Positions 16,260-41,150 of a stretch of 64,000 nucleotides of DNA are shown here, one piece after another; position 1 is the stretch's first letter, and every line of letters starts with the position of its first letter. The notes beneath the pieces were generated by a model, which worked only from the letters and a program-made list of their open reading frames with translations, did not search any database and was not told the DNA's origin. This DNA is from Isoetes taiwanensis. Its lineage: Eukaryota; Streptophyta; Lycopodiopsida; Isoetales; Isoetaceae. A program made the translations under genes and the position numbers. The stretch is taken from contig JAJEKV010000001.1 in NCBI GenBank assembly GCA_021234155.1, positions 186,001 through 250,000 on the forward strand, written 5' to 3'.

Positions 16260-17523
16260 ATGTACACCATCTGTTTCTCCCGTGTCAGACGAAAAAAACA
16301 CCTCATGTTGATCTCTCAGGCGAGGACCTACCAAAGCCACAAGACTATATGTTCGAATTCAAAGCTCCTGCAAGTAAAAATCTTAAGCGAAACTTACACA
16401 AGAAAGCATGTACAACCCAAAGAAGAAAGAAACTTATGGACGAGGCTCACTTGAGGGCAACACATATAAAGCACTGTTGTTCTCGACGTTGTTTGCTTAA
16501 GATTGGACTAAAGGAATTGAGGTTGATTCGTGATAGTTACAGTTCAATGACTCTGTTAGACCAAAGGGGCTACTTAGCCTTCAATATTAGGCCAGATTAT
16601 GGTGAAAGGTTTACTTACACACCTGGTGGCCACACCGTCTGTCAAACAACCTTTAAATTGATTCATGCTTTAGGCGTGACATCTTATTTGCTGAAGAAGA
16701 AAAGGCTTAACAAGAATCCGTGCATTAATGACTCTGCAATTCAGGAGGTATATCCAGAATTCATGCCCTTCAATGTGTTTCCTGGATGGAAGGTTTCTTT
16801 AAGGAGTCATGCGAGAAACTCCCTAACAGCCCTATGTACCACTTGAGTGACAACTTCACGAAATGTGAAGTCTACAGTAATTAGAAGGATATGCGTGTTG
16901 AGGCTGGAGAACGCCATGTTCCGCTACTCTTACTTCAATCGTGCTCGGAAAAAGAGTTTTCTCGGCGTGTCCATTCCTAGAAAGCACCGATGTCCGTTTT
17001 GTGCTACATGCTCAATTAAAAGCTCGAGACAAAATGCAAGGACACTTCACACTAAAAGTAAGCTTCCAAAACGTGTTCTTGCCTAGTTCTACTTAAAAGT
17101 AGGTACTTTCCTAAACATATTTTCATTTCGGATGAATTGAAAGAGAAACCCAACAAGCCTGAGAGAACAACAATCTTTGGAAAGGAGAAAATTGACAAAA
17201 CATAGGAAGAAAAGCAATCGGAACAACCACTCAACTACATATCGGTTGTTATTGATGGAATGGACCGGAAGAAGACCACCCTACCACATTTTGTCAATGT
17301 GCCTAAGGATCTTCTTGAAGAAGATTTCATACACCCGCATGTTGTTGGTGCTATGGTATTTAATGGAAAACTATCTTGCAAGGCATTTTTGAACTATCCA
17401 AACATTCATGCTTGATCCAAATCTCACTATCACAATATTGAATAAGCTTAATGTAGAACATATACCACCGGTTCTATATCTTCATCTAGACAACACGACA
17501 AGAGAAAATAAGAATCAGGCATT
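16260..17523 (+). pseudogene. DUF7869-like gene, 5' part (interrupted by the hAT)
   Basis: Recognisable segments run in order on the plus strand in shifting frames. There is a Cys-containing N-terminal block with HCCSRRCLLKIGLKELRLIR and VCQTTFKLIHALGV (16480-16690). SIPRKHRCPFCATC-like residues follow (16970-17015), then ISVVIDGMDRKKTTLPHF (17240-17290), VVGAMVFNGKLSCKAFLNYP (17340-17400), and LYLHLDNTTRENKNQALFA, ending at the insertion point. The IDGMD and LDNTTRENKN motifs, with VGHTHDQID in the second half at 36370, are those of the DUF7869 family, seen in plant and animal genomes and often transposon-associated. The acidic motifs suggest a nuclease fold, but that is inference. Reading frame changes and stops make this copy non-functional. 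Confidence 0.7.
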
Positions 17524-17544
17524 GTTTGCTTCAGGGATAGGTTC
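17524..17544. repeat. hAT left target duplication and terminal inverted repeat
   Basis: GTTTGCTT at 17524-17531 is followed by the terminal repeat CAGGGATAGGTTC at 17532-17544. The host reading frame before it ends in the NQALFA residues of the DUF7869-like protein. Confidence 0.88.
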
Positions 17545-17639
17545 TGTACGTACGAAATTCAAATTCCTGACGTATAAAGTTAAAAAATACGTATTTTTAA
17601 TAAAATACGTATATAACGTATTTAAAGGTCGCCGGCCGG

Positions 17640-17900
17640 AAAAAAAAAATTCGCGTACGCGAAACCTTCATATTTACGTACGCGAAGATTTTTTCGCGTA
17701 CGGGAAACACGTAGTTTTGCCTTGCAAAATTCAAATCTGAGTTTTCAGACGTCTGGTGCGAAACTTGATTTCGCGTCTGCTGAAAAAATTTTTATGCGTC
17801 GCAATACGGATATTTTCGCGTGGCAAGCAAACCGACGCGGTGTTCAAGCGTTACCGCGGTTTAGCGAGTTTCGTCAGACGCTTTTCGCGTCTGTGAAGTT
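17640..17900. repeat. hAT left subterminal repeat region
   Basis: The motif TTCGCG with TACG or TCTG recurs in both orientations, including the 14-bp palindrome TTCGCGTACGCGAA at 17650-17663. The same TTCGCGTCTG and ACGCGAAA words recur at the right end (35970-36205). Clustered short subterminal motifs are where hAT transposases bind; the match of the two ends supports the element boundaries. Confidence 0.7.
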
Positions 17901-18987
17901 TTTATAAATATGCGGCGCGGGGATTCAGTTTTTGGGCCGCAAAGAAGGTATCTTCTGTGCCCAACCTTCCAATTTGCCCCTCAAAAACATTTTTTTTTAT
18001 TTTTCTTAGTTTTTAGGTTTTTTTTTTTTTGTTGTTTTTATAGGTAGGCCAGGTTAGGTCCTTGATTAGGCCCTCGCTTTGTTGCCCCCATAAGGGGGGG
18101 CATAACGATGGTGAACGCCTTGTTCTGTGGGCTGATCTTGGCCTATTTTAGGGAAAAAAAAAAAAATAATTTAAGACAAATGATAATTTAAGACCAAAAT
18201 AAAAAATAAAAAATAAAAGAAACAAAAAATAAATAAATTTTGTTGCCTTCCCTTAAACGACAACTCTAGTACCAATTAGGTTTAGTGCTTTTTTAGGGTT
18301 TCGTGTTGCCAAGAGCGTAGGCATGCCCCTTGCCTGGTATTGCCGCATTTATTTGCGCCATGCCGAGGGTGGGTGGCACTGCTGAAGTTTAAGGCAACTA
18401 GGGTCTCCCCTTATTAAGAAGTATAACCCTCGCCTGACGCCGTTGTTGGCCTTGGTCACGCGGTGTCGAAAGGTGTGCGTTGTACTCTTATTAAGGGTTA
18501 CGAGAATGTTTTATTAATTCACACCCTAGTTCCTGATGGTGTTGTTGATGAAAGTCCGACACTAATATAGGAACTGGCGTATGTTTTAATAAGCATTCGA
18601 TTGGTCTCGTCTTTTGAAAAAGCGCGACCTGGGACAAGTGCAATGCATTTTAAACTTGCTAGCCTCGCATTTTGGCAGTAGCTGGGCTATAGATCATAAA
18701 TCGTGTTTTGGTCCTTTCATTTGTTACCCTATCCTTGGCCTTGCACATACATACTTATGAACCAATTAAAATTTACTAGTAATAGGATAAAATGTTAGGG
18801 TCTTAGCGTAGGAAGCGTAAAATTAGCGTTTTGTTTTGGTTAAAGTGAGTTGATTTACCCTCATATGCTAAGCACTAAGTTGAAAGTTTTATCTTTGCTT
18901 GACTTATAGGTGTTGCTTTTGTCATTTGCGTATTGTCGTGGAGTCCCATTTTGCTATCTAGCTAGACAATCCCTTAAAACAAGCAGT
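17901..18987 (+). other. Leader or intron region upstream of the kinase gene
   Basis: There is no coding frame. Long T and A runs lie at 17990-18050 and 18155-18240. A candidate 3' splice site (pyrimidine-rich tract and TTATAG) ends at 18909, so a transcribed leader with an intron from about 17957 (AAGAAG/GTATCT) is possible. This is inference from splice-like words only. Confidence 0.3.
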
Positions 18988-20671
18988 ATGACTTCAGAAG
19001 AGAGAGCGGAAGTTAACTCACAACCAAATGTGGCATTAGTGTCTCAGATAGAGCCGCAATCAGTAGAGGCATTGGCGTCTCAAACAGAGGCTACAGAGCT
19101 GCAACCTGAGTCATCTTCTGCAGCACTGCCGCGTAGAAAAAGAAGTAGACCACAACAAGCATGGTCTACTTTGAGACCAGATTTCATGAACTGGTTGTGT
19201 AATCGGCTGTGCAATGCCTCAGCTCAGGATTTGGAATTGATTACCAACAGCGAGGAAGGATGGCTAGACTACCATGCAGGGCTGGTAAAAGATGTCGAGA
19301 GGGCTTTTAAGCTTCGAATGATGGAGCTAGAGCCTGAAAAGAGTGAGCAAGAGAGGTATACATGGATAGTGGGTAATATTAGCCGCACTACCGGCAATAT
19401 GATCACAGAAGTTGCAAATTTGAGTAGTCATCGCTTGAGGCTAGAGCTGAAAGAAAAAGCCAGCACATGGAATGCGGCGTTAAGAAAGGGTGCAAACCAT
19501 AAAAGCCAAACGTCCTGGTGAGACAGATAGGGAGTGGGAAGCTCGTAGAAGAGTAGATGCCAAGACTACTTGGTTTGCCAAAGTAGATTCATCACAAATA
19601 ATAAACAGACAACGAATTGGTTCTGGTTCATATGGCGCAGTGTATAAGTGCAATATTTTAAGGTCTAGTTTTATTAAGGATGAACCTTATTGTGAAAAAC
19701 TTCAACATAATAATTTTCAGCCAAGTACAGAACCCAATAAGTTAGTGGAAGCTATGTTGAAGAACATGAGGGAGTCTGGAATGCAAGTTAGGCATGGGTG
19801 TATAATACGCTGCATTGGTAGCACAACCGGCCTAGAAAGACAAGGCTTAATTTTCCCTTTTTGGAATGGAGGTTCGTTGGCAACCTTCTTTATAAGTCAT
19901 GGGTCCAATGCCTTTGCAGAGCTTGCATTTAAGAAGTTAGGAGCTGTCCCCAGGGTTGAGATGGACTTGAGGCTGTTTGAGAAGCGCATAAAGAAAGAAT
20001 TGTTTGTTGCCTCTAGGGTTGGGGACTTAGCAATATCATTCTGTAGCGGGCTACGAAAACTCCATCAAGAAAGATATTTGCATATGGACTTGCATCCGGG
20101 CAATATATTGCTCCATTTTGATTATGGAAAGGAGAAGGGATGTATTGATCCTCAGGCTATATACATTGGCATTTGTGATTGGGGTGAATCCAGGTTGATC
20201 GGCGAGACAGTGGAGGTAAAACGATGGCATTACAAGGGTTTGGATGGCGAAGGTAAGAAAAGAATTGAGATGGAAAGGGCCACGCATCCATATATGCATG
20301 ATGATCTTTTTTTTGGTAGTGGCTCGAAGACAGTGCTTGCAAGGGTTGACTTTGATTTACACGGGGCAGCGTACATTGTCTACTACTTAGCTGACTTTGC
20401 TAGTAAGCACTCCTACATGGAGTCAAAAGGAAACTTGGAGCAGCAAGGCAAGCATCGGAGAATGTGCGACTATTTGAAACATTGCGTTGAGTCGCCAATG
20501 AGAGACAAAACACAAAAATTTGATATGGCCCAGCTACTTGACACCATGCGGAGCAGTTTTCATTGCTCTCCAATTCCGTGCACGAGGCCACAATTGGAAT
20601 CAGATTGGATTCTTCAACTTGGCCAGGGTGGCGACGATGCATTAGACCAAGCTGGTCCTAGTCACGCCTAG
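18988..20671 (+). CDS. Atypical protein kinase carried by the hAT (one frameshift near 19487)
   Basis: The start ATG at 18988 (MTSEERAEV) is preceded by a possible splice acceptor. Residues 1-170 form a charged N-terminal region with a basic patch (PRRKRSRPQQ) and no recognised domain. After a one-base shift at about 19487 the frame continues to TAG at 20669. The kinase domain shows the glycine loop IGSGSYGAVYKC (about 19615-19650), the hinge-like LIFPFWNGGSL, the catalytic loop YLHMDLHPGNILLHF (HMD for HRD, with Asp and Asn kept), and ICDWGES in place of DFG. The helix-F-like FDLHGAAYIVYYL follows. A clear VAIK lysine is not obvious. Total length is about 560 residues. It would be a cytosolic or nuclear Ser/Thr-type kinase if active. 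The frame is otherwise open, unlike its surroundings, so the frameshift could be a sequencing error. Confidence 0.65.
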
Positions 20672-20939
20672 CGTGCATATTCTATTATTCACACGACCAT
20701 AAATTTACATTCAAACATCCTTGTATTACATAATATTCCAAATAAATTCATTAAACACTTGTTTGATGCTATTTGAGAAATTATTGTCCATGTGTGTAGC
20801 TTAGCTCTTCTTTTCGTGTGTTTTTTGTGTTATTTATTCTGTGTTTTTTTATATGTCGCAGCTAACGAAAATTATAAAGACAAGAAGTCAAAGCATACCT
20901 ATACAAGTCAGCGCACCTATAGAAGTCAGCACTATAATT

Positions 20940-22245
20940 ATGTCTCACGAACAGGATGACGAATCTCCTCCACACAACGTGGATACATCAGAGTAGCCGG
21001 GCCTGGGTCAGCATGATTTTTCGGTACCCTCGAATTTGAGGACCCCCTCTCCTTGGCAGCAAGGCGTGGAGAACAAGCTTGAAATGTCAGCTGCTCGGCA
21101 AATGGAGAGAGCAACAGCACATGCAAGCGAATGAGTATCGCGACGGGCCGAGTTAAGAAGGTCATTCGCGATGGATGAAGTTTCAAAGAGGGATAATTGC
21201 ACCATCACGAGGTGCATAATGTAGCCGGGCGAGGCAGGGGCCAGCTATTGTCCGCATGGAGCGCGGACTCACGACGGCGTAATCACAAATTTGGACAAGA
21301 ATGAGTTTGAAAGAGAGTGGCCTAGTAGGCGGGGTAAGTATAAGGCTCACGAGTGCAAGATTGATGTGGTTCGAGCAAAAGCAGTCGAACGTCATGTCCA
21401 AGTGAAGGGACATTTACCCCACAACGGTGAGTTTAGTAAGAATTTTGTGCAGCAAGTATACTACGAGCTTGTGAAGGAAGTGCCCGTAAATTATGGGAGT
21501 AGAAAATGGAGGCAAGCCAACTTTTGGAGGTGGCAAGGGTAGCCGCGGTTGGAGCCGTGAATGACCTTGTGGATATTCGAGCCCAATTGGAGAATGAGAG
21601 AAGTCGTAACCCTAACACTTTCCGAAGAGAATATTCGCTTGAAGGACCGTGCCGATGGGTATGACAAGATGGCCGCTGAATTAAACGACACTAAACGGCA
21701 ACTAGCGGCATTGAACAGAGAGGCAACGGTCCTCAGGGAAAACAACGATCACTTGCGCAATTTGACCAGATCGTTAGACTCTGACCCTTTTAGGGTGACT
21801 TCGGAGCAGTCGATATCATATCTCCCTCGCGAGTATTTGTATGAGAGCCAGTGGGAAGAGCTAAAGGTTGCTGATTTCAGACATTGCCAATTGTGTGGTG
21901 CTGACACAGGTGGGCTGGTACACTCTAGGGTGTGGGCATCGTATGCACATGCGATGTGTTCTTGATTGGATGTTGCAAAGCCGCTTCTGTCCAATGCAAG
22001 GTGGATGGATTTTTCCTGAGTTATAATATGCCATATTAAATATGCAAGGTCGCATGCCAGCTCTGCCACAACTTGTCGCTCGCAGGAGGGATGGGCAGAT
22101 GCACACATGTGAGAGTTATCGTGAGATGGAATTGTGGAGGGGAGTGGAGGAGCCGCGTGAAGGAGAGGCAGTGCCAGACATTAACCAATTCCTACCACCA
22201 CCTCCAGGGCCGCAGGGTGATTGGGTTGACCCAAATGACCAATGA
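20940..22245 (+). pseudogene. Coiled-coil protein with RING-like zinc finger, hAT cargo
   Basis: From ATG 20940 one frame runs to 21542 with three internal stops (TAG 20994, TGA 21132, TAG 22222-like position 21222). It then shifts by one base near 21504 into MEASQLLEVARVAAVGAV, and again near 21600 into a coiled coil (DKMAAELNDTKRQLAALNR and LRENNDHLRNL, 21670-21770). A zinc-finger segment follows: CQLCGADTGG, then in the next frame GCGHRMHMRCVLDWM and FCPM (21885-21995). The C-x2-C, C-x-H, H-x2-C and CP spacing is RING-like, but the last Cys pair is incomplete. A 48-base GT...AG segment (21998-22045) could be an intron joining FCPMQ to a tail ending PPPPGPQGDWVDPNDQ. It follows the kinase gene on the same strand by about 270 bases. 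If functional it could be a ubiquitin ligase; that is inference. Confidence 0.5.
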
Positions 22246-22285
22246 AAATGAGATATTAAATTTTGAGACAGATTAAATTTTGACG

Positions 22286-22405
22286 TGTATCATTTTGTGA
22301 ATGGATAATAACATTCAGAACCAAAATATTTGGGCCAACAATGCCTGTATCATTTTGTGAATGGATAATAAGGTTCAAAACCAAAATATTTGGGCCAACA
22401 ATGCC
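22286..22405. repeat. Tandem duplication, period 60
   Basis: TGTATCATTTTGTGAATGGA begins at 22286 and again at 22346; both copies run through CCAAAATATTTGGGCCAAC. The copies differ at a few bases only. Confidence 0.88.
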
Positions 22406-22440
22406 TTTGACATTTGGACCTCTTGTGTTTGACGAGTAAA

Positions 22441-22598
22441 GGCATCGAGACTTCCCAATCTCTTTTATCCTAGCTTAGTCTCTTTTGTTTGTCCTGTTTG
22501 ATGTATCTAATTTGCCCCCTAGGATGAGGTTGCTCACTCATTTTAGATGGCGAATTAGATACATCAAGCAGGAAACTCAAAAAGGGAGTACGCCAAGA
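22441..22598. repeat. Hairpin 1 (family B) preceded by a half copy of family A
   Basis: The arm at 22466-22526 (containing CCTGTTTGATGTATCTAATT) pairs with 22536-22598 (AATTAGATACATCAAGCAGG). Bases 22441-22460 are the left-arm sequence of family A (GGCATCGAGACTTCCCAATC) without its partner. Confidence 0.75.
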
Positions 22599-22611
22599 GC
22601 GCGACCCTCTT

Positions 22612-22912
22612 GAATGGTTGTCAGCTCACCAGCCTTATGTTCTCCGCGGCAAACAATATAGACTTCTCGAAATTCTTGTTATCGCCTTTAAAAAGAGCGA
22701 GCTTTGCTCTGACTCTCTTTTGGGTGTCTCTGTGTCAATGTATCTTAGATACTTTGCTAGGTTATATTACACAAAGACGCCCCAAATGGGGGTCGGAGCA
22801 AAAATCGTTCGTTCTAGAGGAGGTTACAAGGCTTTTGAGTACTCTATTTTTATTGTGGCTGCGGATGATATCAGGCTAGTGGTTGCTTGCGATTCCGTGG
22901 GGTCATTAGATG
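22612..22912. repeat. Hairpin 2 (family C)
   Basis: This is a long imperfect inverted repeat with arms of about 140 bases. GCTTTGCTCTGACTC pairs with GGTCGGAGCAAAAA, and TCACCAGCCTTATG pairs with GATATCAGGCTAGTGG. The 101-codon open frame across it is a by-product of the repeat, not a recognised gene. Confidence 0.75.
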
Positions 22913-22924
22913 TTAGTGATTGAT

Positions 22925-23056
22925 GAGTTCAGGCATCGAGACTTCCCAATCTTTCTTTCCCCTCCTTTTTGGGCAATGTAGCTTAGTTTACATGCTAAGT
23001 TCCATTGTCCAAAGAGGGGTGAAAGCAAGGCTTGGGAAGTCTCGATGCTTGCACTC
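22925..23056. repeat. Hairpin 3 (family A)
   Basis: The left arm 22925-22986 (GAGTTCAGGCATCGAGACTT) pairs with the right arm 22995-23056, closing on GCTTAG/CTAAG with an 8-base loop. Near-perfect pairing over about 62 bases is typical of a MITE or of a small-RNA foldback. Confidence 0.85.
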
Positions 23057-23103
23057 AGGAGGTCGATTTGGGAATTCGCGATGCCATGACTCTTGATATT
23101 CAT

Positions 23104-23238
23104 GAGTTCAAGCATCGAGACTTCCCCATTTTTCTTTCCCCCACCTCTTTGGGCAATGTAGCTTAGTTTAAATGCTAAGTTCCATTATCCAGAGAGGCGG
23201 GTGAAAGTAAAGATTGGGACGTCTCGATGCTTGCACTC
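23104..23238. repeat. Hairpin 4 (family A, second copy)
   Basis: This is a second copy of hairpin 3, starting GAGTTCAAGCATCGAGACTT and closing on the same GCTTAG/CTAAG stem. Differences from hairpin 3 are few and some fall at paired positions. Confidence 0.85.
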
Positions 23239-23260
23239 AGGATGGTTACTGTCATCTCTT

Positions 23261-23397
23261 TCATCCTGGCTTAGTCTCTTTTGCTTGTCCTGTTTATTGT
23301 ATCTAAAGTGCCCCCTGGGATGAGATCACTCGCTCATTTTAGGGGGCACTTTAGATATATATAAACAGGAACATCGAAAAGAGAGTAAAAAGCCTGG
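23261..23397. repeat. Hairpin 5 (family B, second copy)
   Basis: The inner stem CTAAAGTGCCCCCT (to 23317) pairs with AGGGGGCACTTTAG (from 23341). The stem continues outward through CCTGTTTAT/ATAAACAGG to CATCCTGGCTT near 23264, which pairs with AGCCTGG at 23391-23397. Confidence 0.85.
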
Positions 23398-23408
23398 AGC
23401 GTGACCCT

Positions 23409-23940
23409 CTTGAATGAATGGTTGTCAACTCACCAGGCTTGATATTGTTCGCGGCAAACAATATAGACTTCTCGAAATTCTTGTTACCTCCTTTAGAAAG
23501 AGCGAGCTTTGCTCTGACTCTCTTTTGTAGTCTCTCTATGTCAATGTAGCTTAGTTACTTTGCTAGGTTATATTACACAAAGAGACTCAAAATGGGAGCC
23601 AGAGCAAAAATCGTTCGTTTTAGAGGTGCAAGTTCTCTTATGCAAGTTGCTATGACGTCAGAAGCGGTAGCGTACCCTAATTTCAAGCCAAAGTGGTGCC
23701 TGGGCATTGTCCATCTATATAGCGGTTGTTAGGCACCAAATCATGGAACATCCTAACTCTTGCTATTGATGGAGAACCTTGAGCATCACTATGACTTGAA
23801 ATTAGAGGACGCGTCCCCTTCGACGTCGTGGTGGATTGTATAAGGACAGGTAACAAGGTTTTTGAGTACTCTATTATTGTGGCCGCGGATAATACAAGCC
23901 TGGTGGTTGCTTGCTATTCTGTGGGTTTATTAGAGATTCT
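23409..23940. repeat. Hairpin 6 (family C, second copy) with hairpin 7 inserted in its right arm
   Basis: It matches hairpin 2 base for base over long runs (GGCAAACAATATAGACTTCT, GGTTATATTACACAAAGA). A 221-base insertion at 23627-23847 splits its right arm; that insertion is itself an imperfect inverted repeat (arms 23651-23733 and 23748-23831, with GACGTC at both outer ends). Confidence 0.75.
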
Positions 23941-24156
23941 ATGGATAGGTAAGGCATAACTCCGGCACGCCAAATCGGCATTTGAATGCCATCAGGACCT
24001 ATAATTTGTACCTCCATTCCTTTGGGTGGCACCTGCCATGTAAACCTATTTGGTATTCAGAGCATGTGCAACCCAAAGGAATAGAGTACAGATTATAGGT
24101 CCTGATGGCATTCAAATCCCAATTTGGCGTACCGGAGTTATGCCTTACCTATCCAT
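23941..24156. repeat. Hairpin 8: ~91-bp arms
   Basis: The arms 23941-24032 and 24066-24156 are close to perfect complements over about 91 bases, starting ATGGATAGGTAAGGCATAAC and ending at TTTGGGTGGCAC/GTGCAACCCAAA, with a 33-base loop. Families A to C do not resemble it. It lies immediately 3' of the array and upstream of the end of the transposase. Confidence 0.9.
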
Positions 24157-24387
24157 TGGGTGGGATGATGTGGAACATGTATCTTGTGACCCCTCTTCAA
24201 TATCAGACTCATCTCATCATACATAGAAAGAACCATCATACATGAAAGAACCATCAAAACATATAGAAGACAAAAACTTATAACAAAAAACTTTACTTTT
24301 TATTAATAGTGTCAGGGACGGTTACAATAGTTTAAAGATCCTCATGAATGGTTACAATAGACTGAAGATACTCATCACATCATCTTT

Positions 24388-25613
24388 CTATGCAGCACCT
24401 TCCTCATCAGTTTCATCATTCGGAGTTCCATCCTCTTCTGCCTGGTGACCTAGGTTCAACCTCCGATGACCCTTTCCTTTGGTGCAACGTCTTTGAGACA
24501 TGTTTCTTCTAGCACGTTCTTTGTTTGTCAAGGTAAAGCACGAAGGAGAGTCTGATGGATCACGTAGGCCAGTCAAATTCTCAACTAGATTGCTCGGACC
24601 TGGCCTATCTGTGTCGGACGCCTCGGTATCTTCGCTGTCGGCTGACTCGTCTGAGAATATGGCTTGGCCTATATCATCTTCGTCGTCAACGAAATGGGTG
24701 CGTTGAATGTCCTCATCAACATGGTTTGCAGCATTTATTGCAAGCATCTTGTCCTCACCGCCTCTTCGCCCCTCTTCCACTTCGAATCGCATCCATGAAA
24801 GGAAACCCAGAGCTTATCGATTGAGATGTACCACCGCTGCGATTCAATAGCCGCCAATTGGAGAAGTTGTATACAAGTTTGTCTGCCTTCTTATGTAGCA
24901 AGCGATTGCGGGTGACACTGTGTATATACTTATAGGCACTCCAATTCCTCTCACTTGCACTATTGGAGGATACCAAGGAGAGGATAGTCATTGCAAGGGC
25001 CTATAACGTATCAGTAACCTGTCCATGGGCTTGCCACCATGCATAAGATTCTATATTTGGTTCCTTTTTATGACTCTCCATTGCATCGTGAAGCTCCTCA
25101 TCCGCCCACCGGCCCACTCGTGTTCTCAGATTGCTTAACTCCAAATGAAGGTCTTATAGTCCGAGCTGTTCGGATAATACATTTTTGCAACCTTCTTCAA
25201 CTTAACCCATCACTTCTTTATCCAGATGCTGGTCCATATCGTGGGTTGTGTGGGTCTAAGGCATGTGCGCACCATGAAGATCATTGTAGGACTTCTTCCA
25301 TCGCTCATTGAAGCATCTCGAGCAAAGTCTTTGCACGCTTAGCATTGTCAAATGGTGCATTGGGGCCATCACGTTCTAGAAAGGATTGAATAGAGTGCCA
25401 ACACCTCCAGACTTCGAAGAATCAAGGGTTTTGATGGCATGACAAACAGGTTGCATGCACCTCACAACATTTTTTTTCACCTTTCCAAAATGTCTCCCGC
25501 CCAAGCATTTCTCGGCTGGGCAAATGCTTGTTGTCGGTGTTTGGCGGAATTTTTCCCTTTCTGCCTCTTTTCCCATTCAAAAAACTCCGTATGATTGAAG
25601 GTTGAGATAATCC
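24388..25613 (-). pseudogene. hAT transposase, C-terminal part
   Basis: On the minus strand, segments AMESHKKEPNIESYAWWQAHG and ALAMTILSLVSSNSASERNW (24920-25010) are followed by IHSVTRNRLLHKKADKLVYN. This is the hAT dimerisation domain with its SERNWS and RNRL signatures. A frameshift leads into an acidic tail (DDEDDIGQAIFSDESADSED) ending in DETDEEGAA at 24388. Upstream segments such as KVAKMYYPNSSDYKTF are readable in shifting frames up to the point where Ty3 copy 2 is inserted. The N-terminal half lies at 34217-35385. Confidence 0.85.
25609..25613. repeat. Target site duplication AATCC of Ty3 copy 2 (partner 34217-34221)
   Basis: AATCC occurs directly outside each LTR end. Five-base duplications are standard for Ty3/gypsy integrase. 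The perfect match shows that the two LTRs belong to one insertion. Confidence 0.9.
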
Positions 25614-26168
25614 TGTTTGGGGTCTGGGTTCGGGAACTCCTAGAAGACAGCCCTCTGTGAGGACCCGTGGATCTAACAGGAGAATCCGGGGGACTATGTC
25701 ACGCGGGATTTGCAAGAAGAGAACAAGAAGAAGAAAACAGAACAAAGAGAACAATGAGAGGAAAATGATAAGCTTCCTTGATATCAATGATGAACATACA
25801 TGAGCTCTCGCGAATCGAGAGAAGACCAAAAGAGACAAGACTCAAAACTCATCTAGCCTTCATGCGCTAGCTCTACTCATATATATAGTACAATGGCCTT
25901 TGGCCCAATATAGACACTCTGACTGATCTCGGTGCTGACTCCTGAAAGGAGGCCTGATTTGCGTGAATGCTAGCGGTGCCTCTTGAGGTGCTCGATCACG
26001 TTGACCGGGCGGTGATGGCCCGGCCACTTGTCCGGCGCCCCCTTTGGGCTGCCGCTTGGTCTTCTCATGGGGCCTTTGATGATCAACCCGGGTTGATTTG
26101 GGGATCCTTGTTCTTGACCTGGTCCGTCAGAGGCATGAATAGTCCTGTACCAGAGGCATGGACTAACA
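25614..26168 (-). repeat. 3' LTR of Ty3 copy 2
   Basis: It begins TGTTTGGGG and ends CTAACA on the plus strand. It is close to its partner at 33661 in AT-rich parts; differences cluster in CG-rich parts. A minus-strand TATATATGAG box lies near 25875-25890. Confidence 0.93.
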
Positions 26169-26182
26169 CTCCCCCACCAAAC
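26169..26182 (-). promoter_or_regulatory. Polypurine tract of Ty3 copy 2
   Basis: The minus strand reads GTTTGGTGGGGGAG directly before the 3' LTR, the position from which plus-strand DNA synthesis is primed. The same tract adjoins the 3' LTR of copy 3. Confidence 0.8.
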
Positions 26183-26249
26183 GACACTCGTGGTGAAGAA
26201 AAGGAGGAAGTGTTTCGAGGGCTGAAAGCCATCCGGTTCAAAGTGATCC

Positions 26250-28325
26250 TCACACGGAGTGAGGTCGGGCACCATTATGGTAATCGCCAATGAGATCCCG
26301 GCGTATTTGGAGAGCAGAGGAGTATTTAGCCCAAGCGGCGTGATCGGGCGCCAATGAGAAAATGAGAGCGCACCATGTCTTCAAGGGCGCATGGACGCCT
26401 AAGAAACAAACCGGCATTCCATGAGTAGGCAAAAACGAGACCGAAGGCACCGGTTAATCGCATTAGGATTGCAAAGTGAAAGATGGGATGTTTGCCGATT
26501 CAAGGAGCCGAGCAGGATGCATTTGAGAGCAGCACGTAAAACCAGCTTGAAGGTGGATCAAGGATCCGGTGAGGTGGCGGCGATTCTCGCAAGAAGGTGT
26601 CAAGACCATGAAGAGCATCGCCAGGCGTTGCCAACCACGCCATTGGCGGCGTAGATCCAATTGATGGTATTATCAAGGGTGGCACCATCCTCCCAATTGA
26701 GCGGCGAACAAAAATCGGGATCCCACCGAGATCCGTCGAGGTGGAGTCCGGCCAAAGATGGCCATCCATGACCTTGGTCCAAAAGGGAGATGCCAATCAG
26801 ATGTCGGGGAACCCGGGGGCGTGGAGGGACACCCAGGGAAGCATAGGGAGAGGGAACCATGCCCGTGGGCATGGGTTGCTTGGCCCGAGCCCCGCTCCCG
26901 AATTCATCGACAAGGGCCGGATCAAGAGCCTTGCACCAATGATCCCGCATGAGGCAGAGAGTTGAGAGTTGATGAGGGCTATCCCGGCCGTGGGGACCGC
27001 CTTGCTATCCGAAAAGCACGTAATTGATTGTAACCTTCGAGGTGCCGCATATAAACTTGTGCATAGGGAAGATCCCCGAATGTCCCGTGATACTTCCTTA
27101 TCCGCTGCAAAAAAGACTTCCGCTTGCCGAGAGGTAAATGATGTGCAAGCTCGCATGTACTCTTGATGAAGAGCGTGTGTCCGAGCATGATCAGCCGAAT
27201 AGGGGTTGTTATCCCCAAGCAACCATTGAAGGGTGGGGTCACCCCGAAAGTTCTGTTGTGGCCCATCCCAAATGATAGAAATCATGAAAAATGTAAGCCA
27301 TGGGCTGAACAACTCAAGGTGATGAAATCCGGATCTTCAGAAAGGAATGAGATCAAAGACCAAAAGGGCACAAAGATAAACCTTTGTCTTCAATAGAGTT
27401 CGCCAAATCCAAGAAAATCTGGGTCGCGGCGCTAGGAACATCCACGGACCATCAGCCCCATGCCACTTCGGAAGAAAGAGGTGGCGGCAGCAACCACATA
27501 ATCCGAGATAACAGAAGGAACTGAAAAATCAACAAAGTGCAGGTTGCTAACGATGGTAACATAGCCAAGCCAAGTTTGGTCCGAGCCTCATCAGGCCGGA
27601 CTAAATAGCGTGTTGTAGCCGTTGTTCGAGGTCACGGATCCCGTGGTCCTTTTCTAACGGCGTATGGATCGGGTCACGGACCCGCTTCTCGAAAGTGTTG
27701 ACCTATGAGGTGGATTGCCCAGAGCATTGAGTCGGGCACGGCAATCTCGGCCATCAAGAATTTTTTCTGTTTCTGAACCTCTCGTAGTTGATCTTGGAGA
27801 GATGTGAGCTGAGAGGTTAAAGAGGCAATTTGAGCCGCCACGCCGCAAGGGTTTTGAACTTGAGTGTCAGAATTGTCACAAAGCTCCGAGTACAAGGCAT
27901 CGAGCTTAGCAATATCTTTGTCCTTCTCACCCGTGAGGGTATCTTTGGACTTGTTTTGCTCCAATAAGTCCTGAATTGTGGTTTGGAGCTGAGCCCTTGA
28001 TCTGCAAGTAGGTTTGTCTGATCCTGTGCACTTTTGAGATCTATACGGGCCTGTAAGAGAGCCCCGTGCTTTTCTTGAAGTTGGGCTTCCAAAGTTTGAA
28101 CTTGTGCAGTTGCAGCTTGAAGGTCACAAAGAACCACATCTGAGGCCTCCAGGTCGCTTTGAACCCCATTCGAAAAGAGCTTCTTGGGATTCTTGTAACT
28201 TGAGAACATCGCCGTGAGCATCCCCGCCGATATCGATACAAAAAGCCGACGAGGGTGCTGTGGTGGTGGAGCATGCGGTTGCCTTGTTTGCGATGTTTGT
28301 GAGACATGGTGTGAACTGGAATGCC
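26250..28325 (-). pseudogene. Third ORF of Ty3 copy 2, N-terminally deleted
   Basis: From 28325 down it contains the linker SHKHRKQG region, a coiled coil (DLQAATAQVQTLEAQLQEKH and AALLQARIDLKSAQDQTNLL-like residues, 27817-28221; LTSLQDQLREVQKQKKFL, 27674-27830), and a C-terminal part. The C-terminal part shares YASLGVP, FWTKV, DPDF and NWEDGATLD segments with copy 3. Many frameshifts are present. The function is unknown; see the copy 3 entry at 38017. Confidence 0.65.
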
Positions 28326-29000
28326 TTGAGGATAGTAAGGTGTGCTCTTGTGATGATATATCGAGATAATCCGTCGCTTCTTAATGGTATGATTGATAAA
28401 ATGGACACCACGATCACCGACCAGCCCGTGGAGTAGCCAAATCGCTGTGATAATTTGTTGATAAAGGACCCCGGGCGTGGTTTGCCGCAAAGCTGTTGTC
28501 CGGAAGTAAGCTTCCGCCCATTTGGTAGCATAGTCAAGAGAACTGGGAATGTAGCGGCACGGGTGTGCTGCCGCAGAGGATTGATGGGTCCCACAAAATC
28601 CATCCCCCATTTGCTGAAGGAAGTGGCGCGGGCGACCGGCGCCAAGGGAAGAGCGCCACGGGCGTGGGCCGCCCCACACGCCGCAAGCATCACACGCGCG
28701 GGCGTGGAGCGCCTTTTGAAGAGCGTGGACCAAAAATAACCAGCAAGAAGGATTTTGGCGTGCCGTGGTGTCACCCCCCGAAAAATGACCACCACCTAGC
28801 CCTTGATGAGCTTCTGACAATATCCGGGACTTCATGAGGTAGAACACAAATGCGGAAAGGATTGTATCCTTACCCTTTTTGTAAAGATGTCCCGCAACCA
28901 TGGTGTAGTCACGGACCTCGTGGAGAAAACCGGTGTCGACGGATTGTCGCTTGGCGAGAGAGCGTGTCATCCTCCGCTGGAAGTGCGCCTGTGAGGAGAT
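28326..29000 (-). pseudogene. Ty3 copy 2 integrase, truncated
   Basis: The zinc-binding start (YTMVAGHLYKKGKDTIL, 28860-28910) and core motifs WGMDFVGPI (about 28590) and GDRGVHFINHTI (about 28400-28430) are present. The frame breaks off after HHKSTPYYPQG, where it joins third-ORF sequence. The catalytic Glu and the C-terminal domain are therefore absent. Confidence 0.82.
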
Positions 29001-29059
29001 ACTGCTGAAAGTCGTGGTACCAATGTGGTGTTGCCGTGACCAAAAAAAGTTGAGCGTCG

Positions 29060-30320
29060 GGAAAGGCGTCTGAGACTCCAAAGGAGGGATCATCCGTGGA
29101 TGCGTGAAAGATAATCTGGGACAACATGAGATTTGCCTCGCCTTGTGAACAATTTCAAAAGGTGCAAATTCTGCGTATGAGGACCCAACGAGCAATGCGC
29201 CCATGGGCGGATTTGTTGATCAAATAAAGAAGTGCTTGGTGGTCAACAAAGAATTTGATCTGACTGCCCAAAAGATAGTGACGGAAGCGTTGGACACAGA
29301 AAATTAGACCCAAAGCTTCACGCTCTGTGGCAGAGTAGTTGCGCTCAGCAGAATTGAGTTTTCTGGGCGGCGTGTCGGGTTTGGTTTGTCGATTAATGCG
29401 CATCATATTCTTGAGAAAGAACGGCCCAATAGCAAACGCCGGTGACATCGACATGAACATGAAAGGGCTTGTCCCATTGAGGAGGAACAAGAACCGGGCC
29501 CGAGTGAGCAAAAGCTTCAACTGTTGAAAGCGACTTCCGCCTGGAATTCCAAGCCCGTGGATTCATTACCGTGAGTTTATGAATGGGATCCGCAATGGTC
29601 GCTAGTCCAGAATGAAGGTGGAGTAATAATTGACCTTACCCAGAAAGAGCGTGTCTCCTTGATATTGGCCGGTGCTTGAGCCTTGAGCACACAATCGATT
29701 TTGGCGTGATCCGTGGTGATACCGCTTTCGGACAACGTGTCCTAACAACACACCCGGGTGACACAAAGGTGCATTTCTCCGGATTGAGACTAATGCCTAC
29801 TCATCACATTTCTCGAAAAGACGAAGTTCCAATTTATCCAAATGGTCACCAATGGAACTCAGAGGCGAGAAGTCATCTTGAAAAAATTTGGTAAGAAGGG
29901 ATTTTCCTTCATAAAATCATGAAAAACTGAGAGCATGATGCTGGAAACGTGGATGGAGAGTTTGATAAGCCAAAAGGAACCACCTTGTAGGCAAAAGTGC
30001 CCCATAGGGTGGTGAAAGTAGTCTTGAGTTGATCGATTCTTTGATGGAGATCCGATTGTAGCCGTAAAACCATCCATGAAGGAGTACATCTCATGTCCAA
30101 AGAACCTCTTCCAAACTTGGTCCGTGAAGGAAGTGGAAAATGATCACGCCCGCGGCTCCGATTGAGTTTTCGGTAGTCCACGCAAAACGCCGGATCTTAC
30201 CATTGTGTTTGAGGGCAATGACGATGGGGCTCACCCATTCGTAATGTTTGACCTCATAGATCAAACCTCGCAGCAAGGAGTTTGTCAATTTCGCCTTGAC
30301 GCCGATCACGGTAATTATGG
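29060..30320 (-). pseudogene. Ty3 copy 2 RNase H and reverse transcriptase
   Basis: The RNase H frame 29155-29520 is long and open, with YSATEREALGLIFCVQRFRH, LGSQIKFFVDHQALLYLINK and SAHGRIARW. The reverse transcriptase at 29700-30310 is frameshifted but shows LIYEVKHYEWVSPIVIALKH, DYRKLN, TFAYKVVPFGLSNSPST and MLSVFHDFMKENPFL. The catalytic DD region is out of frame. Confidence 0.85.
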
Positions 30321-31179
30321 TTGAGCCGCATCGTCGCTGCTAAAACCGACCGCATCCGATTTGGTAGGAATGGTGAGTTCCCCAAGGTTTTGTTGATTCC
30401 CCAAAGATCTCCTCAGCTCCGTGCCAAAATGTGTTTGAACTTTTTGAAGAGTGTGACGGCCCCTGCACGATAGGGGGTCAAGATTTGCGCCAGAAGGCGA
30501 CATGCCGATTGTTGCCTACGTGACACTATCTCGACTTTCAGAGTCCAATGTGGAGTATCACTTCGCGGTCCCGACAATGTGCGCGTGGAGGTTGGAGCAT
30601 AACAGATGCGTGGCACTCTGCGTGGTGAAAAGAGAGGTTGCCGAGTTTCATCAAGCGCAGGTTGCTTCATGACAAAGATGTACATCGGGGGTAAGCCGCA
30701 GGAGATTCTACATCCGAAAAGTGATCAACCCGCTGGATTCGATTGCAAAGAGCCGTAGGGGTCGAGCAAAGCCGCCCACACTCGGTCCTGATCAAGAGTC
30801 ATTTCTCCCCAAGGATCAGATATTCGGGTAGGATGACAGAGGTAGACCTGGCGGTGGAGCCCGAACTTGATAGATATTCCGGGCTTCCTCGTAATCGTGT
30901 CGGAGAGAGCGCTTCAAAGATTGTCGAATCAAAATGATCTTACCAGCTTCCAAGTCCATAGTGGCATTAAGGTGATCATCCGTGATGACTAACCGATCCG
31001 CGGGCCCAAGAATGGATACTCTTGGCCCCGGAGAAAAAAGGTCCGTCGACCAACATTTCATAATCACCGGATCTTCCCCTTAGCTTTCCAAACTCCAAAT
31101 TCCAAAGGGAATCGGAGGTCACCAATGTTGATGTGAAGAAGAGGCGTGACGCCTTGAGGTCTCGTGATATGGCCATTAG

Positions 31180-31480
31180 CCAATTTGATGTCATATGGGG
31201 CACGATAGAGTTCTTTGATGCCCATTTATTTGCGGAGTTTATCCGCTATGAGATTAACCGCGCTACCTCCGCCAATTTGAACATGGTTGACTTGTTTGAT
31301 TGCCCACCGTGGCATGGACCGTGGGTGTAGAGGTAGCAAAAGCCCCAACCAAGACAATGGGAGTGGTAACCGGTCCTTGAGAGCGTGATAGAGTTTCAAA
31401 TTGTTGCCAAACTTAAAGGAATTTTGATTTTGGCCAGCTCCTCTTGGAGTTCCAAAGGCACATGAGAAAAAGGATCTGGC
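31180..31480 (-). pseudogene. Ty3 copy 2 protease with catalytic Asp replaced
   Basis: The active-site segment reads VQIGGGSAVNLI, where copies 1 and 3 have VQIDGGSAVNLI. The Asp codon at 31271-31273 is GGC (Gly) on the minus strand. A retropepsin cannot work without this residue. Confidence 0.75.
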
Positions 31481-31499
31481 CGGATCCACGGGTGCCGGA

Positions 31500-33600
31500 G
31501 GCGTGGTAATGAAGCGAAGAACGCCTTTTGAGTAGGTCAACCTCGCAAAATATTGGGATATGTCCGAGAGCGTGGAGGTTGAGATGTGGAAGGTGTATCT
31601 TGTCTTTGTTGAGCTCGTGGTGGCATGAACGTTCGCCAACGCGCCCTTATGCAAATTTTGCATGAGATTCAAAAAATGCTTTGGCGAACTTTAGGCATGA
31701 CATTTGGCATGAGTTTCTCCAAGTCGCAAAAGTGAACCTTTTGTCTTCCTCATGAGGAATGGTGTCAACCGCAGCGCGGTTCGCGCCATTAGGAATAATG
31801 ATTAAGGGACGCGATGCCCCGGTCCGGGCGGAAACCAAACCAACCCAATTTGATGGCCGGACCGAGGATTAAGAGCCCTAAAAATTTCTTCCCCGCGGCT
31901 TGTTGATCCATCCGAGATTGATTGGCGTGAGCTGGTTGATAACGCGATTGCCGAGGCGCCAGGGTGGCTTCTTAAGAACAGACGCGCCTTGTTTGCCATT
32001 AGCAATCCGTGAGTTGGTAAGCCGTGAGGCTGACCGATGTGGTCCGATTGGTGCCGTGAAGCCGCACCAACTTGCGGAAGTTGAGGACACGCCGCGGGTG
32101 GTATGACCCCATTCTTGGACGCGATAACATCGAGCTTTAGAAGGATCAAAAGGAGGACGGGTTGGGTCCTCGCTGTTGCCCTCGCTGCTGATAGAGTTGA
32201 TTGGGTTGCGCCTCGCAGCGGGTTGCCGCCGATAGTGCGATTGTTGCCGCGCGTGTTGTTTGCACTTGATAAACCAAATTTGTTGCGAAAGGTGTTGGAT
32301 GAGTGCGAAAGTGCACTCTTCCGGGGCATGATTGCACATGTTGCATCTTTTACAATGAGGCGGGCCATTGGTCGAAGTTGCACTCATTTGCCAAGTGGCC
32401 TTGGTATTTGCGCATATGGCACCGATCCGATCACTACCGGATTGGCGCAGTTGAGGCCGGGATGCCAGCCTATGGAACCATGACGGGTGGAATGAAAGGG
32501 AGCTCTTGAAGAGCCACGCCACGGAGGAAACATTGATCGAAAGTGATTGACAAGGTCGATAGCCCCGCTCCAAAGTCTTCTGGACGCAGTATTCACCATG
32601 AGTCCGATAGCTGGAGGAAGTCCTTGGAGAAACCGCACCAAGATCCGCTCGTTGGGTACTCCTTGAGTTTGCCGAGCGCACGTGAAGGCGACCGCAAAAT
32701 CCCGCATCTGGGGCTCTTGTTGAAGGTTATTGAGTTGCTTGAGATGAAGTTGATCATCATCCGTGGTCCCATAGTGAGAAAGAAAAGCAGCCTCTCATTT
32801 CTGACCAATCTTGTTTCCAAAGGGCTTTTGTTGGACATGAGCCATTGATGAGGAGAGCCACGCAGAAGGTGGTGGAAAAAGATGTGGAATTTCAGTTGAG
32901 GTTGCGCATGACCATTCGTGACAGCCGAGCCTCAAATTCTTCCATGTGGGCCTCGAGCACTTTGGTCTAAAGATTTGCGTTTAGTGTTGCCAAAGGTGGG
33001 ATAAGTCGGTTTAAGGGTCCGGAAGGTAGAGGTGAAAGTGCTTGGCAGACAGAACAAAGTAGTGATTATAATGAGGTGGAGTTGAAGGTGGTATAGTGCC
33101 CCGGCGGACCCCTCGGCGAAGGGGTGATCAAGTTGAGGTAATCAAGGTGCCTCGAGCATTGGTTTTGAGGTCGGTAAGGTTGTAAACAGGAAGAGTGGTG
33201 GGAAATGTAGGGAAAGGAAATTCCCCGGTAGGCTTAAAAGAGACATGTGGATATCCCCGCCACCCGGGAGATGATGGTTGTGAAGGAAGAGGCGTATGGC
33301 CCGAAGAGTGATGAATGTAGGCATGGTCGGGGGTATGAAAGCAGTAAGGTTGAGAAGGTTGAGCTTGATAGGGCTCCCCGAGCAGTGATGAGGTGATCGA
33401 GGTCGGGAGCAATGTTTGCACGCTTTGGGGCGGGAACTCTGACGAGACAGACACGAGGGGTGGGTGGCGCCGATCGAGCCCGGTGACCGTAATGTGGCCG
33501 CCTCAATGTCGTGTAGCATCCCATACATGTCGCTGCAACAACCCCTTCGGCGATGATGTCGCCCCAAGCGAGATGCCGCTCGAGAAAGGAGTTCTTCCGG
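31500..33600 (-). pseudogene. Ty3 copy 2 gag
   Basis: The layout is as in copy 1. A His/Pro-rich N-terminus lies at 33128-33567, the gag core around 32593-32960, and zinc knuckle remnants at 32290-32440 (CKRCNMCNHAPEEC is intact; the first knuckle is degraded). A Gln/Arg-rich tail follows. It is broken by several frameshifts. Confidence 0.78.
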
Positions 33601-33660
33601 GCGAAGTTTCCTGACGCATTACGCGACAAAGAAATGAGGATCGAATCAGACCCGCGATGT

Positions 33661-34216
33661 TGTTTGGGGTCCGGTTCGAACTCCCCGAAGACACTCCTGG
33701 AGGACCCGTGGATCTAACAGAGAATTCGGGAAACTATGTCACGCTGGGATTTGCAAGAAGAGAACAAGAAGAAGAAAACAGAACAAAGAGAACAATGAGA
33801 GGAAAATGATAAGCTTCCTTGATATCAATGATGAACATACATGAGCTCTCGCAATCGAGAGAAGACTGAAAAGAGACAAGACTCAAAACTCATCTAGCCT
33901 TCATGTGCTAGCTCTACTCATATATATAGTACAATGGCCTTTGGCCCAATATAGACACTGACTGATCTCGGTGCCGACTCCCGGAAGGAGGCCCGATTTG
34001 CAGGAATGCCGGGCGGTGCCTCTTGAGGTGCTCAGGATCACATGGACGCTGGGGCGTGTGATGGCCCGCCACTTGTCCGAGCCTCCTTTTGGGCAGCTCG
34101 CTTGGTCTTCATGCGGGGCCTTTGATGACTGACCCGTGGTTGACTGTGGATCCTTGTTCTTGACCTGGTCCGTCGTATGCATGAATAGTCCTGTACCAGG
34201 AGGCACAGGACTAACA
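33661..34216 (-). repeat. 5' LTR of Ty3 copy 2
   Basis: It begins TGTTTGGGG at 33661 and ends CTAACA at 34216 on the plus strand. A minus-strand TATA box lies at 33919-33929. It is the partner of 25614-26168. Confidence 0.93.
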
Positions 34217-35385
34217 AATCCAATCATTTATACTTTAAGCACTCTTCAAGACAATTGGAACCAAATCGGGTTTGCCTGTGGATTCATGAGTGCTAGGGTC
34301 TTCGACGCAATGACTTGTAAATGGCATAAATTGCCGGCTTCTTTGTGATGAATTTTACAAGCCGACGACTTTCGAATGGGATCTTTGAACCACGCGTGTC
34401 GTGGAGAACCAATCCTTGAGCAATACGCTCAGGCAATGGCATTGGCAGCTAGTAGCGTGCAACCCGAAATTCGAGACTCCAATAATTCACCCGCTAGCTT
34501 GCAATTAGACGTTATCCATTACAACCTGAAATATTCTCTTCGGTCCAAAACTTTCTATCACGGCTTTGTTTTCTTTGAAAAATCCAATCCCCACGGTCAC
34601 TTGGTCGGTTTTTGGTTTCTACTTGTTTTCAAAATACTTCACCCCCTGGATACACGGTCATGAAGTTTATAAGATGGTCCTTGTTTACATTGCTCCAACC
34701 ATCAGTCACTAGTGAAGCTGGCCTGGCTTCAGTCACACGACACAACTTCATCTCTACACTCTCGACCATTTTTCCGTGTATTTCATCAACCATTTTATTG
34801 TTGGCATGCTTGTATGAAGGCCACCTAAAAGCCGGCCCTGCTTTGGCAACTTCTTGGAAGGCTTCTTTCATTGCTTTGCGCTCCAAAATATGTGGAGACC
34901 ACCCGGCATATAAAAATGCATGCCTCTACAACCTTCAATTGCGTCTTCTTCAGTTGCTCTGATGTTAAGCAATGGTCAACCCTTTGTTGCTTCGTCTGTC
35001 TCTCCACTATTTCAATTGTCTCTATCATTCTCTGCTCTCCCGTGCTTATACCTATTGACCCTAGTCCACCCTCTGATTAGTATGCTGTCCCAACTCCAAC
35101 AGGGGGGGTGGTATAGTTATCTTCGTCTTCTCCTGCCCGGCACTGCTGTTGAGTATCCGTAACTCGTCTTTTTCTCGTATTATTCTTCGTTTTGCGTATC
35201 ACATCTAGTCAAGACAATCTTTCAATGGCATCCTTTCGCAAGTCAGCAGATGCAGTACAAGTCGCGACACCGACGTCTCGTTCACGTAAGATGTGAGCTC
35301 GAATTCTTGTTGCAGAACCATTTACCGATGAGTATCCACAAAACACACATTCCCACTCATGTACGCCAAACTCTTTCACAAAATC
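34217..35385 (-). pseudogene. hAT transposase, N-terminal part (BED finger and DUF659)
   Basis: From high to low coordinates, a BED-type zinc finger comes first (35212-35385: FGVHEWECVFCGYSSVNGS, then RIRAHIL and a distal TC). A linker follows (KQQRVDHCLTSEQLKKTQLK, 34900-35010), then DUF659 (34629-34886: FQEVAKAGPAFRWPSYKHAN and SLVTDGWSNVNKDHLINFMT). An ESFGPKRIFQVVMDN segment near 34510-34550 carries the catalytic-type Asp-Asn. A stop after the BED block (35209) may be a splice junction. Ty3 copy 2 cuts the gene at 34217; the dimerisation domain continues at 25613. Confidence 0.82.
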
Positions 35386-35969
35386 TCATTCCGGGCCTCT
35401 TCTCCGACCGCAACTCGAACTCTTAACGACCATGTGGATGGGTGCAGGTCCCGCGGGCCACAAGCACGCACGCCAGCAGCCCTCGCACCTCTAGAGGTGG
35501 ATGCATGGTCACTGCCCACGCACCCAGCAGGTAGATGCGCGACCAAGAGCCATTGCTCGGACCTCACGACAATGTCTCGGTAATCCAATCCTTGATTACA
35601 CGAACTAAAGGAAGACGTATATATGCAAAGGAGCAAGCTCACAATGCATATGTTACGTCGACGTTCCGTACGAGAATTAAGGGGGGTTGGATGGGACCCT
35701 ATAGGATATTCTATGGAAGCAGATGCGAACCCAAGGCTGGAAACCACTGGGACGGAGTAAACTCACATTCCAATATCCAACGTCGCTCGGTTTCGATTTA
35801 AAAAACGACACCTCAAAGGCAAATTGTTTCCCAAGGAGTATTTTGACTCAACCTCGGCAATCAACGCTTGAGGTGAATTCTAGGGCTAATCACGTTTTTC
35901 TTAATAGTGCCACAAAACAAAGCCAAAACAGAGGCGCAAATATTTTTTTGCTTAGTAAATTGGGAAAAA

Positions 35970-36205
35970 AAAAATCGAAGATTTTTTGCGTCTGCCAAAA
36001 CTAAGAACTGCGTCTGTGAACACTAAGAACCGCGTCGACGCGAATTTAAATTTTCGCGACGCGAAAAACAACTAGAACGCCGTCTGCTGAAAAAAATCTT
36101 CGCGTCTGCACGCCAAAATTGCTTCACACGCGATTTCAAAGGTTCGCGTCTGCGAAAAGTTTCGCCGTCGCGGTTTAGTTGTTTTCGCTGTCACGCGAAA
36201 AATTT
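35970..36205. repeat. hAT right subterminal repeat region
   Basis: GCGTCTG, TTCGCGTCTG and CGCGAAAA words recur many times in both orientations, mirroring 17640-17900 at the left end. Confidence 0.7.
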
Positions 36206-36304
36206 CGATGCCGGAATTGTTTTTGCCGATTTTTTACGTTTTATACGGCAAATTTGTGTCGTATCATACAATTCATACGTATTTTGCATAAAACGTGCAG
36301 TATT

Positions 36305-36324
36305 GAACCTATCCCGGTTTGCTT
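36305..36324. repeat. hAT right terminal inverted repeat and target duplication
   Basis: GAACCTATCCCG (36305-36316) is followed by GTTTGCTT (36317-36324). One A present in the left repeat is missing here. Confidence 0.88.
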
Positions 36325-41115: not shown

Positions 41116-41150
41116 CGCAAGGTCGGTGAAGCCGACACCCCGCCACGATC

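Follow-up and report, generated by a model that had tools for sequence, protein, structure and literature searches.

A hAT transposon family with kinase and RING-finger genes in Isoetes taiwanensis, and the same kinase in a Helitron

A 64,000-nucleotide stretch of the Isoetes taiwanensis genome (assembly GCA_021234155.1, contig JAJEKV010000001.1, positions 186,001 to 250,000; hereafter the window, numbered so that position 1 is its first letter) contains a hAT element that holds, in addition to its transposase gene, genes for a protein kinase and a RING-finger protein as well as an array of long hairpins. We think it probable that this element belongs to a hAT family in which the kinase and RING genes form a resident module, found together with the hairpin array and with a transposase gene on the opposite strand, and that the two proteins serve as accessory factors that aid the element. 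The window copy itself is an old, broken member of this family. The kinase is not confined to hAT ends, as it is also carried by a Helitron of the same genome; three kinase loci (L050-L052) make up what we call the Helitron group.

A full-size hAT element and its relatives

The element occupies positions 17532-36316, which is 18,785 bp as found in the window. Once a nested long terminal repeat (LTR) retrotransposon of 8.6 kb is subtracted, the net length is 10,177 bp, in agreement with the size of about 10 kb given in an earlier prediction for this stretch (the original prediction). Short terminal inverted repeats of the CAGGG type are typical of the hAT superfamily. The left terminal inverted repeat is CAGGGATAGGTTC (17532-17544, plus strand), and the right one, CGGGATAGGTTC (36305-36316, read on the minus strand), is one base shorter. 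Directly outside the ends are the two copies of a perfect 8-bp target-site duplication, GTTTGCTT (17524-17531 and 36317-36324), and inside them lie CG-rich subterminal zones with TTCGCG/CGCGAA motifs (17545-17950 and 35960-36304). The insertion interrupts a single DUF7869 gene, of which Pfam positions 36-76 are found in the left flank and positions 88-128 in the right flank, both above the curated cut-off; with the flanks joined, there is one DUF7869 frameshift near the junction. The duplication and the split gene bear out the claim that these ends enclose one element. A second candidate pair of ends (39818/61096) was rejected based on flanking 8-mers that differ. There is also a lone related end, CAGGAATAGGTTT, at 61084-61096, with no partner or matching duplication.

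We searched the genome assembly (1,658,258,908 bases in 1110 contigs) for the exact 13-bp end and found 1184 forward and 1185 reverse copies, compared with 15 and 9 for a reversed-pattern control. Spans between ends were taken from the first 100 places listed. Two further full-size copies, C22 (10,393 bp) and C157 (10,326 bp), have the 13-bp terminal repeat at either end, their own perfect 8-bp duplications (CAAAGGAT and CTTGGGTG, respectively), and the same four components as the window element (kinase, RING gene, hairpins, transposase), arranged in its order and orientation, as the check proposed in the original prediction required. The three full-size copies measured are thus 10.2-10.4 kb, and full-size copies with their own duplications led us to reject chance pairing of ends. 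Perfect duplications with the kinase inside were also found for C1065, C907:33.45 Mb, and C923. In the first two, RING sequence follows the kinase and a listed transposase lies beyond (the stretch from the RING gene to the right end was read in part); in C923, a deletion that begins at the start of the RING gene continues directly into the transposase, with loss of the hairpins and of most of RING. The duplication is of the hAT type, with 8/8 matching bases, in the window copy and in each of these five. Such copies at separate sites, flanked by duplications of their own, are an indirect sign of mobility.

The original prediction took copies with the same ends and no cargo as evidence against itself. 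Many exist, and the objection applies in a weak form only, as the fetched examples comprise short forms, spans occupied by other repeats, and one shortened copy. Specifically, seven spans that measure 121-709 bp and a 2.5-kb span share just their ends with the window element, C152 (14.4 kb) and C1 (25.2 kb) match only at the ends and are filled with other repeats, and C23 (5.3 kb) has kept the transposase and lacks the hairpins, the kinase domain, and the greater part of RING. The duplications in the fetched spans are 8/8 except in C124, C23, and C1 (7/8), and C80 is not a pair, as its fetched ends face outward. The two long spans, C1:501387-526618 (7/8 duplication) and C152:43783-58161 (8/8), have retroelement-like open reading frames and long pyrimidine tracts inside.

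The arrangement can also be followed from the genes rather than from the ends. We scored 105 of 1476 candidates in a kinase search (110 matches) and 150 of 894 in a transposase search. A listed transposase lies within 30 kb of 36 of the 105 kinase loci, where 0.57 is expected by chance, and in 34 of the 36 it lies on the opposite strand, downstream of the kinase, 29 times at a distance of 3.0-6.3 kb (the two exceptions among the 36 are C13 and C1018:39.24 Mb). RING-gene homology of at least 100 bp occurs within 1.5 kb downstream at 23 of 30 fetched kinase loci, the seven without it being L033, L044, L045, and L049-L052. The left end was found at 7/14 tested kinase loci (5/10, one with one mismatch, and 2/4).

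The kinase, RING-finger, and transposase genes

The hallmarks of protein kinases are a glycine loop, a catalytic lysine, an HxDxxxxN motif, and a DFG-like motif. In the window, a stop-free open reading frame of 393 codons (19490-20671, plus strand) matches the kinase domain PF00069 (E 1e-10). The N-terminal part of the gene (18988-19518, plus strand, from the ATG at 18988) is not in the same frame as the kinase domain, owing to a short stretch that is missing from the window copy and present in other copies. The prediction that the kinase frame is far better preserved than its surroundings was correct for the 393-codon stretch only. The kinase motifs (glycine loop, YCVK, HMDLHPGN, and DWG) are identical in four copies; the window kinase has YCEK in place of YCVK. 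Farther upstream, a segment at 18409-18605 (plus strand) shows 76%-82% identity to the segment upstream of the Helitron-group kinases L050-L052.

The hAT kinases comprise two clades, A and B, and long open kinase frames are present in both. C1075, a copy of clade B, has open frames for both cargo genes, with 621 codons for the kinase (33.3 bits to PF00069, cut-off 31.7) and 448 codons for the RING gene. Among proteins from other sources, P0002 (from ENA) is a full-length relative of the kinase (580 amino acids, 42% identity over 530 amino acids, N-terminal region included) and P0001 is a remote one (25% identity). No relatives were found in phage records and no close ones in viral contigs. A structure model of P0002 had a mean predicted local distance difference test score of 45 and was not used for fold searches.

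The RING-finger gene (20940-22242, plus strand) is a disrupted remnant in the window and is open in C1075 and L041. The C1075 protein matches PF00097 with 23.7 bits and the clade A frame in L041 with 21.6 bits (cut-off 21), and all other RING profiles are below their own cut-offs. As the last cysteine zinc ligand is not evident by eye, we call this a variant RING, and a ubiquitin-ligase role, raised as possible in the original prediction, is putative. A search with this protein gave no relative with E of 1 or less among 7998 scored candidates.

The transposase gene is on the minus strand and is broken in the window. Its 3' part (24391-25613) has stops and frameshifts and includes the hAT C-terminal dimerization domain (PF05699, 21.6 bits, cut-off 21.4), and its 5' part (34217-35409) has a BED-like piece recognized by eye and a DUF659-like piece. 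The original prediction described a BED/DUF659/dimerization transposase. The dimerization domain stands; DUF659 scores of 19.0 and 16.2 bits are below the cut-off of 34.7, and there was no Pfam match to BED in the transposase piece scanned.

Selection on the kinase

Comparison of the kinase between copies by the ratio of nonsynonymous to synonymous divergence (dN/dS) was a check set beforehand, and it gave about 0.1 between clades, a value that is only rough because dS above 2 is saturated. For the whole kinase, the reported clade A versus clade B pairs have dS 2.1-3.0, dN 0.23-0.31, and dN/dS 0.086-0.127; one clade A/B pair and all pairs of L051 (Helitron) with clade B are too saturated for dN/dS. 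The ratio is 0.12-0.16 between hAT clade A and the Helitron group and 0.16-0.17 within the Helitron group. For the kinase domain of the window versus that of C157, the kinase frame gives 0.084, and the other two frames give 1.2 and 1.7. Judging from these sequence comparisons, the kinase has long been kept under purifying selection while carried by the element, and decay is under way in the window copy and in many others. Because the kinase was kept working for so long, the element may need it.

The hairpin array

The cargo genes and the transposase gene run toward each other, and at their meeting point the element has an array of hairpins of four types. In the window, they are listed on the plus strand as beta1 (22483-22582), gamma1 (22710-22806), alpha1 (22924-23057), alpha2 (23100-23242), beta2 (23280-23380), gamma2 (23516-23612), and the long hairpin delta, with 71-nt arms and a nested hairpin (23941-24156). 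Folding of seven stretches gave z values of -7.6 to -13.9 for alpha1, alpha2, beta1, beta2, and gamma1, -4.1 for a truncated delta piece, and +0.55 for one off-register stretch. All four types were found in the window copy, C22, C157, C1010, and C1049, some hairpins are present in C1075, C1031, and L046 (each read in part), and none are present in the C941 Helitron (see below), C23, C1, C2, C80, or C152. In a search for alpha hairpins (40 of 1062 candidates scored), nine of the best 40 rows, some of which are mutual neighbors, have a listed kinase within 30 kb and 16 have a listed transposase (chance expectation 0.15 and 0.22, respectively); 18 have either, in the order of the window. In L070 (C1010), the delta unit has expanded into a tandem run of about four copies (joined stretch, about 6354-7056), and alpha units are tandem at other loci (e.g., C952, C919).

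Between the window and C1075, the hairpin block (window 22406-24156, with a sharp edge near 22.4 kb) has 88%-96% identity, linkers included (91%-93%), with the exception of a 42-bp divergent stretch that separates two alpha units. Outside the block, the same copies have 67% identity in the RING gene and 49% in the spacer ahead of the block. The block is less alike between the window and C22, which is of the same kinase clade (45%-90%). Conservation of the linkers equals that of the hairpins, which suggests that the block was exchanged as a whole rather than that the hairpins alone were under selection, and the comparison of the window block with C1075 and C157 points to sharing between deep clades far more recently than for the kinase and RING genes, that is, to module exchange. 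Selection on the hairpins as such, proposed from the 94%-95% identity of the alpha1 stretch between clades, was dropped because of the equally conserved linkers.

The original prediction saw in the array a small-RNA-like locus. A small-RNA locus under its own selection would fit the strong foldbacks, the presence of all four hairpin types in the five copies named above, and alpha arms that are near-invariant across 16 units. However, the linkers and the sharp edge that indicate whole-block exchange do not fit, the parts of C13 and C908 that were fetched and read showed no hairpins, and of 16 Rfam matches (E up to 1) in the region 17400-25613, none reached its gathering score, so that a match to a known family, as looked for in MIRNA genes, was not obtained. 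On balance, we consider such a locus unlikely, and the earlier description was not upheld.

Is the module simply captured host sequence?

The kinase and RING genes could be host genes taken up by ordinary capture, passengers of the kind found in Pack-type elements that are useless to the element and whose conservation is left over from the host gene. Capture would sit well with three observations: by our count, a near-complete match free of stops exists at only 19 of the 105 scored kinase loci; full-size spans are much rarer among the 100 listed places than the end sequence is overall; and the window kinase gives a dN/dS of 0.29-0.53 with its close relatives. It is difficult to reconcile with a kinase/RING order that is kept in two clades with saturated synonymous sites and dN/dS near 0.1, with long open kinase frames in both clades, and with a RING protein that lacks relatives among the candidates scored. 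We judge capture to be improbable and favor a module that resides in the element and aids it.

It should be noted that several results count against this preferred interpretation. To the low share of intact loci and the ratios for close relatives just described, and to the saturation noted above, must be added that the kinase-domain frame of the window versus C22 (dN/dS 0.53) hardly differs from the other frames (0.61 and 0.75), and that the N-terminal part of the kinase has a ratio of 0.25 between the window and C157. The kinase of C22 is full of stops and that of C157 is frameshifted. At 7/14 kinase loci there is no left terminal repeat within 2.4-3.0 kb upstream (three of these seven belong to the Helitron group), and in C1010 the flank of the right end does not match that of the left end. 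The hairpin results for C13 and C908 belong here as well, as do 22 of the 40 best alpha rows that have no listed kinase or transposase nearby; such rows may represent hairpins elsewhere or elements that the short lists do not include. Finally, with 105 of 1476 candidates scored, there may still be a host kinase locus outside the elements.

A Helitron with the same kinase

On C941 (L051 and L074, from C941:1562631), an open kinase frame of 604 codons precedes, on the same strand, an open Rep/helicase frame of 1417 codons, in which Helitron_like_N (99.8 bits) and PIF1 helicase (167.3 bits) are matched in one open reading frame. C1058 (L052 and L080) has two stretches that match C941, one (93%) extending from the kinase into Rep and another where the Rep frame ends; the C1058 kinase is frameshifted, and Rep was compared at its two ends. 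Helitrons typically have a 5' TC and a 3' hairpin followed by CTRR. The homology of L051 and L052 ends about 240 bp beyond the Rep frame, in L052 near a palindrome. Common to the window and C941 are the kinase gene, to shortly past its stop codon, and the upstream segment at 18409-18605; the RING gene, hairpins, and transposase of the window are not shared with C941. Within the group, only L051 and L052 have Rep homology downstream, and none was found next to L049 or downstream of L050. The label "Helitron" given to L049 in the kinase tree is therefore unsupported.

The kinase tree includes 34 of the 36 compared copies and P0002 (L040 and L044, with fewer than 430 codons, were omitted; C22 and P0002 are on long branches). 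It places L050-L052 in one group (100/100) on the hAT clade A side, with clade B and P0002 opposite. The simpler reading would be transfer of the kinase from hAT to Helitron, with the root resting on one distant outgroup row, P0002. The opposite course, in which the kinase was originally the Helitron's, was spread by it, and was then acquired by the hAT element, might be suspected from the two open frames of C941 and from the constraint on the Helitron-group kinase, but this tree position, subject to the same single-row root, makes it quite improbable. That the kinase and RING gene are separate insertions, or neighbors caught between unrelated ends, as a right end one base short and a nested retrotransposon might suggest, has next to no probability and is already contradicted by C22 and C157, which have this arrangement at other places, together with the split DUF7869 gene and the perfect duplications.

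How the module might act

In the arrangement that we favor, the kinase, with its own N-terminal region, and then the RING protein would be expressed from one strand and the transposase from the other, so that two transcription units would converge on the hairpins. These most likely have their effect at the 3' ends of the two transcripts, where they would serve as barriers or as a source of double-stranded RNA. The transposase would mobilize the full element and the short forms in trans. Selection for the kinase would act via the element, and the kinase and RING protein would be accessory helpers that might, for example, phosphorylate a host factor by which the element is restrained or silenced, or target such a factor for degradation; candidate targets are silencing, repair, or transposase control. 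The Helitron would presumably have benefited from acquiring the kinase gene. A broader interpretation, which we offer tentatively and with some doubt, is that the kinase (with its RING partner in the hAT element) is a selfish accessory module that raises transposon fitness and was adopted by two unrelated classes, hAT and Helitron, in one genome, in which case transposons would trade an anti-host or self-regulating signaling gene much as phages and plasmids trade counter-defense genes.

To our knowledge, eukaryotic DNA transposons are usually thought to require a transposase alone. If our interpretation is right, transposons can carry signaling genes to their own benefit, as suggested by a kinase constrained past synonymous saturation, with a RING gene alongside, and present in a Helitron too. 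The host step that the kinase alters, whether silencing, DNA repair, or transposase control, then becomes directly testable.

Comparison with known elements

Plant hAT elements are usually shorter than 5 kb. The family described here resembles the plant hAT superfamily (Ac/Ds type) in its 8-bp duplications, CAGGG ends, dimerization domain, and short forms with common ends, but differs from it in its length of about 10.2 kb, its two resident nontransposase genes, and its hairpin array. Helitrons are known to carry captured genes, and the C941 Helitron is similar to these in holding a kinase beside its Rep/helicase frame. Unlike in such cases, its kinase is open over the full length, under constraint, and common to a hAT family of the same genome.

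VANDAL elements are Mutator-like. In Arabidopsis they encode the VANC anti-silencing proteins (PMC10398659, PMC5735166) and, as described in the parts of those papers available to us, are similar to the present family in that a transposon encodes an accessory protein; the same parts mention no kinase or RING protein for VANDAL, and an anti-silencing role for the cargo of our element is conjectural. ToxhAT of fungal wheat pathogens is, according to the accessible portions of its descriptions, a cargo-bearing hAT of 14 kb that moves an effector gene between species (PMC12506042, PMC9594970). It is thus similar in being a hAT with cargo, and different in that the present host is a plant rather than a fungus and the cargo is a kinase and a RING gene, in many copies within one genome. 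We recognized no kinase-bearing hAT in the literature searched, which consisted of listed titles and the beginnings of abstracts, two of the lists giving 20 of 96 and 10 of 33 entries, and had most subscription journals outside its range.

The nested retrotransposon

The LTR retrotransposon within the hAT transposase gene (25614-34216, minus strand) is not part of the hAT element. It is bounded by LTRs at 25614-26168 and 33661-34216 and by the target-site duplication AATCC (25609-25613 and 34217-34221), and its LTRs have diverged by a Kimura two-parameter distance of 0.12 (545 aligned sites). The same LTR retrotransposon family has three copies in the window (1-7332, 25614-34216, and 37029-53744), the third of which is split by other DNA at about 45104-50709.

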